This document shows positions 2-7,651 of a stretch of 13,471 bases of DNA, piece by piece (the stretch's first letter is position 1; each line of letters opens with the position of its first letter). Both the position numbers and the translations under genes were made by a program. The stretch comes from Synergistota bacterium (GTDB lineage Bacteria; Synergistota; JAGHAJ01), in contig JAGHAJ010000173.1 of assembly GCA_021161545.1 (NCBI GenBank), positions 1-13,471 of the forward strand, read 5' to 3'. The notes below the pieces were generated by a model. That model made no database searches. It saw nothing but the letters and a program-made list of their open reading frames with translations, and was not told where the DNA came from.

Positions 2-1117
2 TACTATCCACTCCACTACGATTATTATGATATGAAATTTGTTTCCTTCTCAGACAAGCCAGAGTTACTCTCTTATCTCCTTTATCTTCAGAATAAGGGG
101 GTTAAGTTTGTTCTTACGGGGTGTTTAAGGCGGTATTATAAGAAGGAATATACAAGAGATGCAGAATTTTGGGATTTGCGGAAGGATAAACCTATAAGTA
201 ATTTTGTTGAATATTTCGATACTCGTATGAATGTCGCTCTATCCATCTCGGTCAATACTGGGATATACCCCATTGCGATAGAGCCATCTGAGTTTATGTT
301 CCCACCAGCTTACAGGAAAGAGATAGTCAAATATTTTAGGTATTACCTTGGGCAGGTGCAGGTGAGTAGTGATACGTATAAGGGAACGCAAACTTTTCCA
401 TATATTACATTTGATAGGGATAACAACCTTACTATAGTGCCAGTTAACTTGGGTTATGTTAACAGGAACAATCTTGATAGAGGTGCAAATACGGTTATAG
501 AGAGAGCAAGAAGACTGAAAGATGTGGGGAATGTATTTGCGGTGTTTTTATATCATCCGTTTGTGGGGAAAAGGCACCTTGTCAGGATAGTAGAATATCT
601 CAAAAGGTATGGTTACAAGTTTGTTTCGCTTCCCTTTGACCCTGAGGATAATCCTTATTACAAGATGAAGTTTAAGAGGATAGATGGTTATACAAAGCTT
701 TTTATGAAAGAGGAGATACCCGAGACGAAGAAACTTGCTGAGAGGAGCATGTCTGTTATATATATACTTGGAACTATAGCAGGAGGCATTCTTCTGATAG
801 TATTTCTATACATTATAGGAAAGATAAAGAAAAACCTGTTTACAGGCATGTTACTGCTTTTTATTCTGGGTAGCATGTATTTACCATCTGATTCTTATGC
901 TAAGGAAATCTCTGTTTTAGCAGAGAAAAAAGAGTCTATGGTGATGTTGGTTAACCTGTTTGGGAACTTTCGGGCTGATGTTAGACTTGTCAGCAATAAT
1001 GGTAAAAAGGCATCCAAGAAAGCGTTGGACTTGCTGACCCACAGAAAAGGTGAGTTTTGTTTTATAGGAAATGACTTATACGGGATGTATAGGAATAAAA
1101 AGAGTAGGTGGATGTAA
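2..1117 (+). CDS. DUF2334-type polysaccharide deacetylase paralogue, 5'-truncated by the window, probably inactive
   Basis: The frame is open to the left edge (codons from position 2), so the ATG at 32 is internal and about 258 N-terminal residues lie outside, judging by an ungapped match to the complete paralogue at 6032-7651. Numbered from that ATG, residues 1-200 are the C-terminal half of the deacetylase fold. Conserved blocks include EFWD (45-48), a YF(D)..M stretch, PVNLGYV, ERARRLK and the HPF motif (H175). The metal-binding HGxTH motif of the paralogue is here TGCLR (T29 and R33 replace both His), and APHY has become PSEF. Loss of deacetylation is therefore likely. A membrane helix spans about 241-262, and a second hydrophobic segment at 267-290 leads into a short tail resembling the N-terminus of the paralogue. 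The stop overlaps the next gene's start (TAATG). A structural or regulatory role in the exopolysaccharide machine is inference. Confidence 0.82.
   Translation, partial: YYPLHYDYYDMKFVSFSDKPELLSYLLYLQNKGVKFVLTGCLRRYYKKEYTRDAEFWDLRKDKPISNFVEYFDTRMNVALSISVNTGIYPIAIEPSEFMFPPAYRKEIVKYFRYYLGQVQVSSDTYKGTQTFPYITFDRDNNLTIVPVNLGYVNRNNLDRGANTVIERARRLKDVGNVFAVFLYHPFVGKRHLVRIVEYLKRYGYKFVSLPFDPEDNPYYKMKFKRIDGYTKLFMKEEIPETKKLAERSMSVIYILGTIAGGILLIVFLYIIGKIKKNLFTGMLLLFILGSMYLPSDSYAKEISVLAEKKESMVMLVNLFGNFRADVRLVSNNGKKASKKALDLLTHRKGEFCFIGNDLYGMYRNKKSRWM
848..1114 (+). pseudogene. In-frame remnant of a second DUF2334 deacetylase copy fused to the preceding gene
   Basis: Translated in frame with the preceding gene, this stretch begins like a signal peptide: a KIKK charge cluster just upstream, then MLLLFILG and a small-residue site SDSYA. 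It continues with blocks matching residues 44-121 of the complete deacetylase at 6032-7651: EKK, VMLVNLFGNFRADV versus VMLVNLLGHFRVDV, and THRKGEFCFIGNDLY versus VHRKKGFCFVGNDLY. It then jumps straight to a tail, YRNKKSRWM, matching that protein's last residues YRNRRNRWE. About 400 residues, including the whole catalytic domain, are missing between these blocks, and a shorter gap lies inside the first block. The simplest reading is a tandem deacetylase copy reduced by internal deletion. No SD precedes the ATG at 848, so separate translation is unlikely. Confidence 0.65.
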
Positions 1118-2376
1118 TGAGTATTGAGCTTATATTCCTTGTATCCCTCTTCATAATATGGATTTTTTTGCTATATCACGCATTTTTGTCGTATAAGGGT
1201 TTTTTCTACTCCTTACGTATGGAGAGGGAAAAAGAAGAGATAGATAGAACTCCTGTACCTGATGATGAGCTTCCTTTTGTCTCTGTTCTTATCCCTGCGC
1301 ACAACGAGGATGTTGTCATAGAAAGGGCATTGAGGGCGGTATGCTCTCAGGATTATCCCGTTGAGAAATTTGAAGTTATATGCCTTAATGACCATTCAAC
1401 GGATTCAACTGGTGAAGTTGCGAGAGGATTACTGAAGCATTTCCCTAACTTGAAGGTTGTTGACCTACCAGAGGGTGAGGGGGGAAGTAAAGGAGCTGTT
1501 TTGAACTACGGTGCTAAGAATATTGCAAAAGGGGATTACATAGCTGTGTATGATGCTGACAATACACCCTCCTCCAAGGCTCTGTATTACCTGATGGTTA
1601 ACATAATGAAGGATGAAACTATGGGAGCGGTTATAGGTAAGTTCAGGACGAGAAATTGGGATCACAGTTTGCTTACGAGGTTTATAAACATAGAAACTAT
1701 ATTTTTTCAGTGGGTCACTCAGGCTGGTAGAGCGAGTTTGTTCAGGGTTGCTACCATTCCGGGCACGAACTTTGTTATAAGAAAGAAAGTTCTTGAAGAG
1801 GTTGGATATTGGGATCCGGATGCACTTACCGAGGATACAGAGCTGAGTATAAGAGTGTATGAGGCTGGATACTGGATAAAGATGGCACCTTACTCTATGA
1901 CATGGGAAGAAGAACCAGAGACTATGAGAGTCTGGATGAAACAGAGAACGAGATGGGCAATGGGCAATATCTATGTGCTTTTTAAGTACTTCTGGAGGAT
2001 ACCGTTTATGAAGAATTTCTGGATAGCTGTAGATATATTCTACTTGATGATGGTCTATGTGATGTTTTTGCTCGCTATAATAGGCTCTTTATATGTTTTT
2101 GTGGTGGGTAGTTTGGGGTTACATACACTTGACCTTGAAGGTAATTTTATACTTATATGGGTGCTTGCTATCTTGCTATTTGTTATTGAGATAGGAATAG
2201 CGCTTGGGGCAGAAAGACTTGAGAATAGCTTCTCTAACATAGCACTGGCTTTTTTGATGTATTTTACTTACACACAGTTGTGGGTGGTGGTGGTGTTTAA
2301 GGCTGTAGGAATACTCCTGTTTACAAAGGTGTTTAGGGTTAGATATAGATGGTATAAAACAGAGAGAGTGGGGTGA
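1117..2376 (+). CDS. Membrane processive family-2 glycosyltransferase (BcsA/PgaC-like exopolysaccharide synthase)
   Basis: This 419-residue inner-membrane GT2 would polymerise a beta-linked glycan from a nucleotide sugar and push it through its own channel. One N-terminal membrane helix (about 4-22) is followed by the GT-A domain. Its signatures are PAHNE (60-64), LNDHSTD with D92, the DAD metal site (146-148), TED catalytic base region (238-240) and QRTRW (276-280), which is typical of processive synthases. Three or four membrane helices follow (about 300-333, 344-364, 373-402). It ends at 419 right after the last helix, so the c-di-GMP-binding PilZ domain of canonical BcsA is absent. The ATG at 1117 is preferred over the GTG at 1108 because AGGTGG at 1106-1111 sits five bases upstream and the stop/start overlap is TAATG. 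The sugar is unknown. Neighbouring deacetylases hint at N-acetylhexosamine (inference). Confidence 0.9.
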   Translation: MSIELIFLVSLFIIWIFLLYHAFLSYKGFFYSLRMEREKEEIDRTPVPDDELPFVSVLIPAHNEDVVIERALRAVCSQDYPVEKFEVICLNDHSTDSTGEVARGLLKHFPNLKVVDLPEGEGGSKGAVLNYGAKNIAKGDYIAVYDADNTPSSKALYYLMVNIMKDETMGAVIGKFRTRNWDHSLLTRFINIETIFFQWVTQAGRASLFRVATIPGTNFVIRKKVLEEVGYWDPDALTEDTELSIRVYEAGYWIKMAPYSMTWEEEPETMRVWMKQRTRWAMGNIYVLFKYFWRIPFMKNFWIAVDIFYLMMVYVMFLLAIIGSLYVFVVGSLGLHTLDLEGNFILIWVLAILLFVIEIGIALGAERLENSFSNIALAFLMYFTYTQLWVVVVFKAVGILLFTKVFRVRYRWYKTERVG

Positions 2377-2381
2377 GTATT

Positions 2382-4961
2382 GTGAAGGCATATCGATTGT
2401 GGTTGTTTTTGCTTCTTGGACTGATTTTTGTGTCTTTCTCGGGGATGGTGTATGGTAGCGAGATTAAGGATGTCAGACTTGGTATACATAGGAATTTTAG
2501 GAGACTGGTCTTTGACCTTGATGCAAAGCCTTCTTGGAATATAAAAGTCAATAGGAGGAGTGTGCTCATAACGTTTAAGGGGATGGATGCGTCTCCGAAG
2601 TTGCAGGCTGCGAAATTTAGGGATAGAATCTTGGAGAAATATAAGGTTTATAGAAAGAAAGGACTTGTTAGGGTAGAGGTTTTTACAAGGGTGGATTTCT
2701 ATGTGAAAACTCTTGTAGTTCCCAACCCGTATAGGCTTGTTGTGGATTTCTACCCCAAAGTTGCCGGGAAGAACGAGAATGTGATTGCTAATGTAGCAAA
2801 ACCGCAGGAGAAGAAGCCTGCTACTGTTGTGAGGAAAACTAAGCCAGCTGAACCTGAACCATCGAAGAAGGTTGTGTCTAAGGTTAGTAAAATTGCGACG
2901 AAGGAGAAAGGTATATCTATAAAAGGTATTTCCTTACCTACTGCTCCAAGTAAGGTACAAGTTGTGAACCTACCACTGCTACCTACTGATAAGGATGTCT
3001 GGGGAAGGAAGATATTTAATACATTCTTGTTCTATTTTTCGGTGGATCCTGCATGGGTGGTTAGAAAAGGAAGCTTTATAAACCTGGTGGTAAGTCATTC
3101 TTCTCTTTCACTGAATAGGATATCTTCTCTTACCGTTTACCTAAACGGCTTGCCGCTAAAAAGTTTGTTTTTGGACAAAAGCAATGAGCTAAAGACAACG
3201 GTGACTATTCCACTTCCACTCAAATACGTGAAGAAGGGCTATAATGAGATTGCTGTTAAGGCTTACCTTAGGAGCCTTGCCGATCCGTGCCAGGATGTAG
3301 ATAATCCCGGTAACTGGTTAAAGATACACCATGAGAGTGTTATTCATATAGAGTACACACTGAAGAAAGACCTGCTGTTGAGCGATTATCCAGTGCCATT
3401 CTTTGAACCTATCTCTCCGAAGTACTTCAGGACAGTTGTGGTAGTGCCCGATAAGCCTTCTGGTAGGGAGCTGTCAGCGGCATTTTCTCTCATCATGGAT
3501 TGGGCACAAAACTCTCCTTATGGTGGTTTCTTTCCTATAGTTTCAACTGAATCAGAATTAACCTCTCGTGATAAAGAGGATAAGAATTTAGTGTATATAG
3601 GAAGGTTTAACGGCTTCAGTGTGTCTTTCAAAAGGTATGTTTCTTCTAAAGTAGATATGAATTTGAAAGTGGGGAAGAGCTATTTGGTTGTTATGAGATC
3701 ACCATTTACAGATAAGCGTATGATGTTGCTCATAACTGGATATGATGATCTGGACGTTTTGAGAGGAGCTAAGGCGATAATAATACCTACTATAAGAAGA
3801 CAGATGACAGGGAAGGTTGCTATGATAGACAGAAGTGTAGTATTACCCATGAAGAGCAACTACAAGGTGTTGGGTGACTTTATAACAATATCTGAGCTTG
3901 GTTATCCAAATATACTCCTTGAGGGAATGTATCATCAGGAAAAGCTTGTTACTTATATGGTTCCTACTAATTGGAAACTTAAAAGGGGTGCATACGCTAA
4001 GATATACTTCAGGCATTCAAAGGTTTTGAGTCCTGATAGGTCTTCTCTAACCATCATGCTTAACGATGTGCCCATAACATCAGTGAAACTTACGAAAGAG
4101 AATGCTGATAATGGAGAGGTTACCGTTAAGCTTCCCGATGAGATACTAAAAGGTGGAACTCTGAATTTTGGCTTTAGGGCTTATTTGGATATTAATACAA
4201 AGGATTGTGCCAAAAACTATGTCGAAGATGCTTGGGTGCTGATAAAAGGGACATCACTTTTCTACCTACCTCACACAATACTGCCAGCGAAGTTCTTAAT
4301 AGAGTATATGCCTTATCTCTATATGGGTAAAGAGGGGCTTAAGGATACCGATGTGGTGTTCACAGATAAACCAGACAGAGCGACTATGTCTGTTCTTGCG
4401 AATATACTGGCTTCGTGGCAGGATAGAATAACCCTTCCAATGCCGCCAAATGTCCACATAGTTAAGAATGAGAGGGGTTCTGTTTTTAAGAAGAGGACAA
4501 AGATGATAGTAGTTGGTAGAGCGAAGGCGTATATGCATAAGTTGTTCCCTAAGCTGATTTCTTATGACGCTAAGAAAGATCGGTTTTATTCAGAAAAATA
4601 TCCCTTGGTGCCTAAATTTGTCAGGGATGCGACGGTTATTCAGGTTATAAATAATGGAGGATATCCACTGACGTGGATAGTAGTTCCTCGGAATTTAAAG
4701 TTGACACCTGTGTACCTTCTCAGTCTGGATGGTAGGTCAACTACCAATATACCTGTGGGTGAGCTTTCTCTTATATCTCAAACTGGAAAAGTTGTTTCCT
4801 TTGTGGAAAAGAAAAAGAAGAAGCAGAAGAAAGAACAGAATATTGTATCGAGGGTATTAGAGGCAGCAGCTGAGAGACGTATGCTTACAACCTTGCTTAT
4901 TTTCTTGACAGCAGCTGCTATAGTGGTAATCATTATACTGAGAAGGGAGCGGAAGAAATAA
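2382..4961 (+). CDS. BcsB-like cellulose-synthase regulatory subunit with N-terminal AMIN-like domain
   Basis: This 859-residue secreted, C-terminally anchored protein would accept and guide the polymer leaving the synthase. It has a signal peptide (about 1-26, ending VYGSE). An AMIN-like domain follows at about 27-127 (RLVFDLD ... VVPNPYRLVVDF). Then come a Lys/Pro-rich linker (about 130-190) and the BcsB region. The BcsB region shows two related modules, each with a Cys and W..I signature: DPCQDVDNPGNWLKI (C303) and KDCAKNYVEDAWVLI (C609). After a Lys-rich stretch, a helix near the end (MLTTLLIFLTAAAIVVIIIL) is followed by RRERKK, as in the BcsB membrane anchor. The GTG at 2382 has GGTGA five bases upstream and gives a clean signal peptide. 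The GTG at 2373, overlapping the previous stop as GTGA, adds three residues and is the alternative. Family BcsB is well supported; the polymer identity is not. Confidence 0.85.
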   Translation: MKAYRLWLFLLLGLIFVSFSGMVYGSEIKDVRLGIHRNFRRLVFDLDAKPSWNIKVNRRSVLITFKGMDASPKLQAAKFRDRILEKYKVYRKKGLVRVEVFTRVDFYVKTLVVPNPYRLVVDFYPKVAGKNENVIANVAKPQEKKPATVVRKTKPAEPEPSKKVVSKVSKIATKEKGISIKGISLPTAPSKVQVVNLPLLPTDKDVWGRKIFNTFLFYFSVDPAWVVRKGSFINLVVSHSSLSLNRISSLTVYLNGLPLKSLFLDKSNELKTTVTIPLPLKYVKKGYNEIAVKAYLRSLADPCQDVDNPGNWLKIHHESVIHIEYTLKKDLLLSDYPVPFFEPISPKYFRTVVVVPDKPSGRELSAAFSLIMDWAQNSPYGGFFPIVSTESELTSRDKEDKNLVYIGRFNGFSVSFKRYVSSKVDMNLKVGKSYLVVMRSPFTDKRMMLLITGYDDLDVLRGAKAIIIPTIRRQMTGKVAMIDRSVVLPMKSNYKVLGDFITISELGYPNILLEGMYHQEKLVTYMVPTNWKLKRGAYAKIYFRHSKVLSPDRSSLTIMLNDVPITSVKLTKENADNGEVTVKLPDEILKGGTLNFGFRAYLDINTKDCAKNYVEDAWVLIKGTSLFYLPHTILPAKFLIEYMPYLYMGKEGLKDTDVVFTDKPDRATMSVLANILASWQDRITLPMPPNVHIVKNERGSVFKKRTKMIVVGRAKAYMHKLFPKLISYDAKKDRFYSEKYPLVPKFVRDATVIQVINNGGYPLTWIVVPRNLKLTPVYLLSLDGRSTTNIPVGELSLISQTGKVVSFVEKKKKKQKKEQNIVSRVLEAAAERRMLTTLLIFLTAAAIVVIIILRRERKK

Positions 4962-4962
4962 T

Positions 4963-6039
4963 TTGAAAAGAATAGTAAGCATGGTTTTGATACTGTTGTC
5001 TGTGGTTCTGCTCTCACCGGGTTTGGTGGAAGCAGCACCTTTTGCTTATACGGAACGGGTTATATATAATTTTATTACAACAAAACTTATGGATGAAGAA
5101 GGTGGAATATACTCAAACTACCACAACGATTACCCGGATAGCGATGTAGCAGGAGTGAATCACGATATGCTTTCGGAATCTTTGGGGCTTTTTATGGAAT
5201 ACCTTTACCTTTATGATGATAAGAGGGGTTTTGCAACGCAGGTTAAGCTTTTGGAGAAGAAGTTTTTGTCTCCTGTGGGTCTTCTTTATTGGCGTGTCAG
5301 GGAAAATGGTGAAAAGGAAAAATCCAACGCTCTTATAGATGATCTTAGGGTGGTTAAGTATCTACTTCTTGCCGGTGAGAAGTGGGAGGAAGATTCTTAC
5401 ATAAAGTTGGCTAAAAAGATTTCAAAAGCTATTGAGGAGTATAATACCTATAGAGGGTATCTTGTAGAAGGTGCAGATTGGAGCAAGGGGTTTATATTTG
5501 GTTATTCTGTGACCAAAGCAAAGAGGGTTTGTGTGCCTTATCTTGACCTTTATGCGATTGAACTGATTCGCAGGAAAGTGAATGCTTTTGCTCCTTTATA
5601 CAGGAGTTCTGTTGGGATTGTGGTAGATGGTGTTAAGGAGAGAAAGGTGAAGAAATTCTTTTATCCCCGTAAGGGTAGATATGGTAAGGGGTATGCAGAC
5701 TCTGTAAATACGTTGAACGCCATACAACATCTTGTTGATATAGGATTTTCACCATATAAGTTTCTGGAGCACTTGAGGGTGAAGTTTACAAATCCTGCCT
5801 TTAGAGTAGATGATACTGCTACCTGTGCTCTTTCTGCTGAGATATTTACAGCTGTAGGTGATAGATATGCTGCAAGGTCTGCCTTGAAGAAGATGTTGAG
5901 GTTTTATATAAAGACGGGGCCACTTGTTGGCGGGATAGGGTATAAAGAAAGAGGTCGTTATCATGTATATGCCTTTGACAATTTGCTTGCGATAGATGCG
6001 CTGAGGAGATACTCTTTGAGGTGGAAAGAAGTTGAATAA
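4963..6039 (+). CDS. Secreted GH8-like glycoside hydrolase (BcsZ analogue)
   Basis: A 358-residue protein with a signal peptide (KRIVSMVLILLSVVLL, cleavage near VEA-AP). The mature part is helical and resembles the (alpha/alpha)6 barrel of glycoside hydrolase family 8. LSESLGLFMEYL (E72) sits where GH8 has SEGxGYGM with its catalytic acid. GLLYWRV (106-112) matches the GLMxWR block. ALIDDLRVVKYLLLAGEKW (D126/D127) matches the TDADLDIAYALLLA block bearing the catalytic Asp. Family members cleave beta-glucan, xylan or chitosan, and BcsZ is the GH8 enzyme of cellulose operons. Its place directly after the BcsB-like gene (one base gap) supports a role in trimming or editing the nascent polymer. 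The start is TTG at 4963, with GGAAG seven bases upstream. The family call rests on motif spacing, not on a search. Confidence 0.68.
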   Translation: MKRIVSMVLILLSVVLLSPGLVEAAPFAYTERVIYNFITTKLMDEEGGIYSNYHNDYPDSDVAGVNHDMLSESLGLFMEYLYLYDDKRGFATQVKLLEKKFLSPVGLLYWRVRENGEKEKSNALIDDLRVVKYLLLAGEKWEEDSYIKLAKKISKAIEEYNTYRGYLVEGADWSKGFIFGYSVTKAKRVCVPYLDLYAIELIRRKVNAFAPLYRSSVGIVVDGVKERKVKKFFYPRKGRYGKGYADSVNTLNAIQHLVDIGFSPYKFLEHLRVKFTNPAFRVDDTATCALSAEIFTAVGDRYAARSALKKMLRFYIKTGPLVGGIGYKERGRYHVYAFDNLLAIDALRRYSLRWKEVE

Positions 6040-7651
6040 GCATCTAATTCTTGCAATACTATTTTCTTTTTTGTTTTTAACTCGTTTCGCTTTTGCGGAA
6101 ACTTTTGGCACGCCTCCCCGTAAGAGGGTGGTAATGCAGCCTTCTATAGATAGTGTAGCTGTGGTATCTGAAAAGAAGAATCAGCTCGTTATGTTGGTCA
6201 ATCTGTTAGGGCACTTTCGAGTAGATGTGAAGCATTGTCTGGTTAATTCTATAGGAAATGGGGATGTTGAGGAAATAAGTAAAAGTGACTTTGTTTTCTT
6301 TATAAGCGATAATGATGGTAAGATACCCTCAAATATATTGAATCTTATGGTTCACAGGAAGAAAGGGTTTTGCTTTGTTGGGAATGACTTATATGTGCTT
6401 TTAAGACGTGTAAGGTATCCGATTAGTTACAATGGTGAGATAAGTAGCTACAGTTATATAAACTACCGTGGCAGGCGCTACTTTAATGATGGTAGGAGTG
6501 CATTTTTTAGCTCGTATAGTATGAATGGGGGTAAGGTACTATCCTACTTTACTGATGGGACTAATAGGGCGGTTTATATAGGCAAAATGGGTAATATGTG
6601 GTTTGTTACAAATCCCGCTTTGTATGGATATTCTATTCCCGGCTTGATCTTTGCAGATGCACTTCACGACATACTCAAGAGGGAACATACAAGAGTGTTA
6701 GGAGCATTGATTAGACTGGAGGACATAAACCCGAGTTATGATGACAAGGTCTTGGAAAAGACACTTTCTTACCTTTATAGAAACCATCTCCCGTTTGCGA
6801 TGATATTTTACCTTGTATATGTGGATTTTGCGGATAAAGAGGTCATTACTATTTCTCAGAGACCTGACCTTGTTAGGATATTGAAGAAAGCGGATAGACG
6901 CGGTGGGACGCTGATACTTCATGGAGTTACGCATCAGTATAGGAAGGTAGAGATTTCAGGAGAAGGTTCTGAGTTCTGGGATATGGAGAGAAATGCAATG
7001 ATTCCGAACTTTAAGAAGTACTTTGATGAGAGGATGAGGTATGCTATAATGGTATCTAAGAAGTATGGGATACCGTTTAGGGCATTTGAGGCTCCCCATT
7101 ACAATTTACCTTTAGTTGGGCAGGAGATGTTAAAAAAATATTTCCCTGTATATGTTGGACAGGCTATGGTTAACAATGATAATTATAGGGTTACTCAGCA
7201 GTTTCCGTATTTTATATACAGGAGCTATGCAGGTTTGTTTATAGTGCCTGAGAACCTTGGTTATGTGGCTATCCATGAGGAGGAGAAGGGTGTGGGCTCT
7301 ATTTTATCGAGGGCGAGATTGTTGAAGGAGATAGTGAGAGATCCTGTGGCAGCGTTTTTCTTTCATCCGTTTGTTGGGGTCAAGTATTTGAGGGAGGTAG
7401 TGGAAGGTTTGGAGAATATGGGTTATAATTTTGTTGATTTGAAGAATGTGATACCTTTGTATGAAATGCCTGATGTTAAGGCTGTATCTATAAAGAACAT
7501 AGGATTGCCGTTTGATATATCGAAGGTGGAAAAGAAGAAGGGAAAGCTTGACCTCCGTATATTGGTTTTGGGGATATTCTTGACTGTAGTTGTGCTGAGC
7601 GTAGCTTATATATTCAGGTTATATAGGAATAGGAGAAATAGGTGGGAGTAA
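6032..7651 (+). CDS. DUF2334-family membrane-anchored polysaccharide deacetylase
   Basis: This 539-residue exported protein is predicted to remove acetyl (or other acyl) groups from the exopolysaccharide. A signal peptide (1-22, ends AFA) is followed by an N-terminal alpha/beta-looking domain (about 40-215). The deacetylase domain (about 222-475) has NodB-like features: RLEDINP (E230, D231), ILHGVTHQY (H297 and H301, metal ligands), FEAPHY (E353, H356) and FFFHPF (H445, candidate catalytic His). A C-terminal membrane helix (about 508-528) ends in a basic tail. All key residues missing from the left-edge paralogue are present here, so this is likely the working enzyme of the cluster. The TTG start at 6032 overlaps the hydrolase stop by eight bases, with GAGGTGG seven bases upstream. 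Substrate is inferred from context only. Confidence 0.85.
   Translation: MNKHLILAILFSFLFLTRFAFAETFGTPPRKRVVMQPSIDSVAVVSEKKNQLVMLVNLLGHFRVDVKHCLVNSIGNGDVEEISKSDFVFFISDNDGKIPSNILNLMVHRKKGFCFVGNDLYVLLRRVRYPISYNGEISSYSYINYRGRRYFNDGRSAFFSSYSMNGGKVLSYFTDGTNRAVYIGKMGNMWFVTNPALYGYSIPGLIFADALHDILKREHTRVLGALIRLEDINPSYDDKVLEKTLSYLYRNHLPFAMIFYLVYVDFADKEVITISQRPDLVRILKKADRRGGTLILHGVTHQYRKVEISGEGSEFWDMERNAMIPNFKKYFDERMRYAIMVSKKYGIPFRAFEAPHYNLPLVGQEMLKKYFPVYVGQAMVNNDNYRVTQQFPYFIYRSYAGLFIVPENLGYVAIHEEEKGVGSILSRARLLKEIVRDPVAAFFFHPFVGVKYLREVVEGLENMGYNFVDLKNVIPLYEMPDVKAVSIKNIGLPFDISKVEKKKGKLDLRILVLGIFLTVVVLSVAYIFRLYRNRRNRWE

Follow-up and report, generated by a model that had tools for sequence, protein, structure and literature searches.

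A collapsed DUF2334 gene fused to its upstream neighbor in a ydaJKLMN/pssA-E-type operon of a Synergistota bacterium

Gene order and the tail of gene A

Why does the DUF2334-family protein encoded at the left edge of this contig continue beyond its own membrane helix into a second hydrophobic segment and a short tail that ends on the start codon of a polysaccharide synthase gene? The window (the whole stretch of DNA analyzed, 13,471 nucleotides) is the complete contig G000:C239 from a fragmented bin of 288 contigs that is 82% complete. Its left end falls inside gene A, cutting off the 5' part of that gene, which was not found on the other contigs of the bin. The window has the order A-b-GT2-BcsB-GH8-C, in which b denotes the tail fused to A and C a full-length DUF2334 gene. 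In comparing these genes with named operons, we take YdaL to be the DUF2334 protein, YdaM the GT2 protein and YdaN the BcsB-type protein. The features, all on the forward strand, are as follows:

2..847, + strand: gene A, DUF2334 family (Pfam DUF2334, E = 1.7e-13; alignment to relatives)
848..907, + strand: signal-peptide-like start of stub b (MLLLFILGSMYLPSDSYA/KE), in frame with A (hydropathy)
908..985, + strand: stub b, first half of the N-domain (ISVLAEKK...RADVR), homologous to C residues 42-67
986..1081, + strand: stub b, second half of the N-domain (LVSNNGK...GNDLY), homologous to C residues 90-121
1085..1117, + strand: end of stub b (MYRNKKSRWM, then stop), homologous to the C-terminal tail of C
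1117..2376, + strand: GT2 polysaccharide synthase, YdaM/PssC-like (Pfam; start context)
2373..4961, + strand: BcsB-like protein, YdaN/PssD-like (Pfam BcsB, E = 1.3e-42)
4963..6039, + strand: GH8-like protein, YdaJ-like (Pfam Glyco_hydro_8, E = 5e-5, just under the cut-off; synteny)
6032..7651, + strand: gene C, full-length DUF2334 protein (Pfam, E = 7e-38; tree; alignment)

The reading frame from 2 to 1117 is open throughout, with no stop codon. The membrane helix of A lies at 764-820 (Kyte-Doolittle 2.49 over 19 residues) and is followed, at about 830-844, by the residues KKNLF(T), which correspond to the ancestral C-terminus of A: KKNLF lines up with the termini conserved among relatives (RKKRLFR-stop and RRRDLFS-stop, pattern [KR][KR]x[LM]F), and the fusion point is therefore the old gene border. 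The second hydrophobic stretch, at 836-871 (Kyte-Doolittle 2.46 over 12 residues), leads into SYA/KE, in agreement with the initial annotation, which had noticed a signal-peptide-like segment after the helix of A. The stub does not have a charged n-region of its own, such as those with which C and the intact B genes of relatives (the DUF2334 genes preceding GT2) begin.

The initial annotation proposed that the tail at 848-1114 derives from a duplicate DUF2334 gene that suffered an in-frame internal deletion and was fused to the preceding gene, and both the homology and the coordinates are borne out. BLASTP aligned the tail with C at E = 3e-14 with a single 22-residue gap, and the mature tail scored 146 against C, compared with a mean of 27.1 (sd 4.5, maximum 55) for 2000 shuffled sequences (z = 26.5), while z was 7 or less for b against every other DUF2334 N-domain. 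The last nine residues of the tail, which had been attributed to the paralog's last nine, match those of C end to end (YRNKKSRWM and YRNRRNRWE, respectively; p = 0.0005 by shuffling). Alignment at the DNA level, which had been suggested as a check, gave 80% identity to C over 41 nt and 85% over 27 nt, with 73% over the final 41 nt including the stop codon; DNA homology proper begins at ~908, and 75 of 207 aligned nucleotides differ (~36%). In a tree of N-domains, b and C pair with support of 98/99, which places the duplication inside this lineage. The tail thus represents a DUF2334 gene copy that has collapsed to a stub of 270 bases, and its closest full-length paralog is C.

Two segments are missing from the stub. 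Between the halves of its N-domain, 22 residues of C (68-89) are absent, leaving a 66-nt gap, and a second loss of ~1.2 kb took the entire catalytic domain together with the membrane helix that anchors the protein; the stretch 824-1114 has no Pfam match and no DUF2334 catalytic domain, whereas A and C both match. In C as it stands today, the large missing segment is bordered by a 7-nt repeat, CTTATAT, yet a simple join at this repeat does not match the junction in the stub; the 66-nt deletion has no shared flanking word of at least 5 nt.

Although A was initially labeled a deacetylase, that label is probably wrong. At the HGxTH site A reads TGCLRRYY, with both histidines gone, where C has HGVTHQYR, and at the APHY site A reads EPSEF, again without the histidine, where C has APHY. 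Gene C keeps all three histidines of these motifs and is a predicted deacetylase; a comparison of C with PDB entries gave no useful sequence match. In two other genomes of the phylum, G127 and G183, gene A shows degeneration at these motifs too. The N-domain tree, in which the branches are long, gives A of the window no firm place and no firm orthology with A of G127 and G183. DUF2334 genes of the A type precede the main DUF2334 gene in the window (2-847) and in loci L024 (6834-8690) and L025 (10381-12006), all of them without the HGxTH histidines, and the histidine-less A is a recurrent, probably inactive partner in ydaJKLMN-type operons.

Ancestral gene order and a proposed history

The comparison set comprised 185 genomes of the phylum, with none from the same family and no intermediate stage of the collapse among them. 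Relatives of gene C occur in five of the other genomes, and where contigs show the operon its order is GH8, membrane GGDEF, DUF2334 (B), GT2 and BcsB; an Omnitrophota genome has the same order, GH8-GGDEF-B-GT2-BcsB. G127 and G183 carry two tandem DUF2334 genes in an intact A-B-GT2 arrangement, with A and B overlapping by 4 nt (GTGA and TTGA, respectively), and G006 and G047 have B-GT2 (the contig of G008 stops within B and that of G006 within reach of GT2). The intact extra DUF2334 gene that the initial annotation had suggested looking for in relatives is therefore present at that place, and the stub occupies exactly the position of B, between A and GT2. A and B were already separate paralogs before B was duplicated and collapsed. 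The stub, initially described as a second deacetylase copy fused to the first, is a DUF2334 duplicate but not a copy of A: it sits in the ancestral place of B, the main DUF2334 gene of the operon, and it is C that looks like the displaced copy.

The genes for GH8, DUF2334, GT2 and BcsB are all present in the window, in permuted order as judged from Pfam matches and the synteny of relatives. Since B precedes GT2 and GH8 lies upstream in relatives, the window order, with GH8 and C behind BcsB, is derived, and C is probably a displaced copy of B. The contig, cut at its left end within A, has no membrane GGDEF gene; the rest of the bin contains four GGDEF genes, and a search there for a YdaK-like gene identified none. 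Compared with loci L022-L025 and L008, in which GH8 and DUF2334 come before GT2, the segment 4963-7651 shows a permuted operon, which possibly arose by operon duplication and reciprocal loss. Had the whole operon been duplicated in tandem, remains of the GT2 start would be expected after C, and none were found there (p = 0.16 for protein, 0.105 for DNA). In L007 (4049-7975; a Bacteroidetes-labeled bin), the DUF2334 protein encoded before GT2 has 1308 aa and is fused to a large extra C-terminal part.

We infer the following order of events, and regard the account as a whole, a collapsed B kept for the start of GT2 in a ydaJKLMN/pssA-E-type operon, as likely. At first, an intact B would have separated A from the GT2 synthase in an exopolysaccharide operon of this type. 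Duplication of B within this lineage would then have given a second copy (C), which ended up after BcsB and GH8 and made the original B dispensable. The original would have lost, in frame, the 66-nt piece of its N-domain and the ~1.2 kb segment encoding the catalytic domain and membrane helix, and with the A/B stop and start gone A would read through into b. Behind the helix of A, the chain would enter the membrane again at its second hydrophobic segment, and cleavage by signal peptidase after SYA may set 71 residues free. The last codons would have been retained by selection on the sequence they contain, a Shine-Dalgarno AGGTGG and an overlapping stop, TAATG, from which translation of GT2 would start.

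Retention of the stub end and possible function of the stub protein

As the initial annotation stated, the frame and the TAATG coupling to the synthase are preserved: the stop codon of the stub (1115-1117) overlaps the ATG of GT2 (1117-1119). The last codons of the stub contain AGGTGG at 1106-1111, a putative ribosome-binding site 5 nt before that ATG. Comparable sequences (AAGGAGG, AAGGGAG and AAAGG) lie in the last codons of B in G006, G183 and G047, a few bases before the GT2 ATG, and in all three the stop codon of B overlaps the GT2 start. In several relatives (B/GT2 borders of L022, L023 and L025), basic codons at the end of the DUF2334 gene thus also serve as the GT2 Shine-Dalgarno sequence. 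Gene C ends in the same AGGTGGGAG as the stub, with no gene beginning directly behind it, which fits descent of C from a copy that once lay before GT2; the following gene, rpsF, begins >100 nt downstream with its own GGGAGGAGG. Because the end of the stub carries the start signal of GT2, its deletion would strip GT2 of that signal. On the basis of sequence context, the stub end most likely survived for this cis role, as the Shine-Dalgarno sequence and start of GT2.

Two observations on the stub protein weigh against this account. For b compared with C, pN/pS is 0.40 (bootstrap 0.27-0.58), a value that includes time before the collapse, has saturated synonymous sites, and is not a reading of present selection on the stub. 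The frame is open over 89 codons, for which the chance under a Markov model is 0.001. Either the collapse is young relative to the duplication, or constraint on the stub protein persists. AlphaFold2 models built from three-row alignments reached pLDDT 44 for A-b and 42 for C, too poor to judge folding of the stub, with the tail at about 25-39. In the low-confidence model of C (pLDDT 42), the residues missing from b (68-89) span a strand, a helix and the greater part of a second strand.

The initial annotation saw in the tail a new small exported domain, and one alternative is that it works as such: A-b would span the membrane as a hairpin, and its extracellular tail of 71 residues, perhaps after cleavage, would still take the part of the N-domain, for example by binding or regulating the synthase complex. 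The open frame and the pN/pS value would fit this alternative, as would the in-frame nature of both deletions and the retention of EKK..VMLVNLxGxFRxDV and HRK..FCFxGNDLY, the pieces that are best conserved. However, the missing 22 residues include predicted core strands of a beta-alpha-beta domain, which casts doubt on a working domain, the tail is modeled at low pLDDT from a shallow alignment, and no homolog of the short form occurs in the other 184 genomes. A functional domain is thus unlikely, and there is no support for a new exported domain that is stable; the ribosome-binding site of GT2 is a better reason for the kept end. An adaptive collapse, in which an export signal, a synthase-binding mini-domain and the next gene's ribosome-binding site were all kept and signal peptidase splits the polyprotein into A and a 71-residue exported peptide, is quite improbable. 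We consider the stub protein most likely to be a passenger, with no function of its own.

Two other explanations would do away with the collapse altogether. The contig could join different DUF2334 genes or strains during assembly or binning, with an intact B existing in the organism, and the fragmented bin and the beginning of the contig inside A leave room for such an error. Yet 824-1140 and C have no exact word longer than 11 nt in common, a length insufficient for a k-mer join, an artifact would require three separate breakpoints, the ~36% nucleotide difference argues against a chimera with C, and the region has no match on the other contigs of the bin; we consider an artifact very unlikely. 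The in-frame fusion of the tail to A would also agree with an ancient accessory domain that has no full-length gene behind it, but the A genes of G127 and G183 end at KKxLF and are followed by an intact B with the 4-nt overlap, and the tail has a signal peptide and the C-terminal end of B. Nor is a conserved tail domain seen elsewhere in the phylum (no match in the other 184 genomes; remaining hits E > 0.05), making this explanation extremely improbable. Collapse of B in place, with its end probably held by the start signal of GT2, would best account for these observations.

Comparison with known exopolysaccharide operons

The closest known counterpart is ydaJKLMN of Bacillus subtilis, an exopolysaccharide operon controlled by c-di-GMP (PMC13274460, PMC5422440). 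The gene set is the same, and relatives also share the order (glycosyl hydrolase, membrane GGDEF c-di-GMP receptor, YdaL, GT2, BcsB-like). The window differs in its order, A-b-GT2-BcsB-GH8-C, in the extra histidine-less DUF2334 gene A, in the collapse of B and in having no GGDEF gene on the contig. The pssA-E operon of Listeria monocytogenes, also a c-di-GMP-controlled exopolysaccharide operon, likewise has GT2 (PssC) followed by a BcsB-like gene (PssD) and includes a degenerate GGDEF receptor; there the GGDEF gene is last, and a tandem or collapsed deacetylase gene is not reported in the part of the source drawn on here, to which this comparison is limited (PMC4125290). A literature search under the name DUF2334 found nothing relevant.

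Duplication, loss, rearrangement and fusion of loci are described as usual in exopolysaccharide operons and have been catalogued for those of cellulose, PNAG, Pel and alginate (PMC7112194). That survey counts intact loci, whereas the remnant described here shows stages of loss and a reason for the part that was kept. The locus makes an operon rearrangement legible: once a gene has a copy elsewhere, the old one shrinks to a stub with the bases for starting the next gene. Fused tails on annotated proteins can thus be remnants that a cis signal keeps in place, a point of importance for annotation and for the interpretation of domain architectures, and the case also points to a recurrent histidine-lacking DUF2334 partner in operons of the ydaJKLMN type. 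The scar is not a new kind of system but a well-resolved example of the operon rearrangement known from these exopolysaccharide loci.
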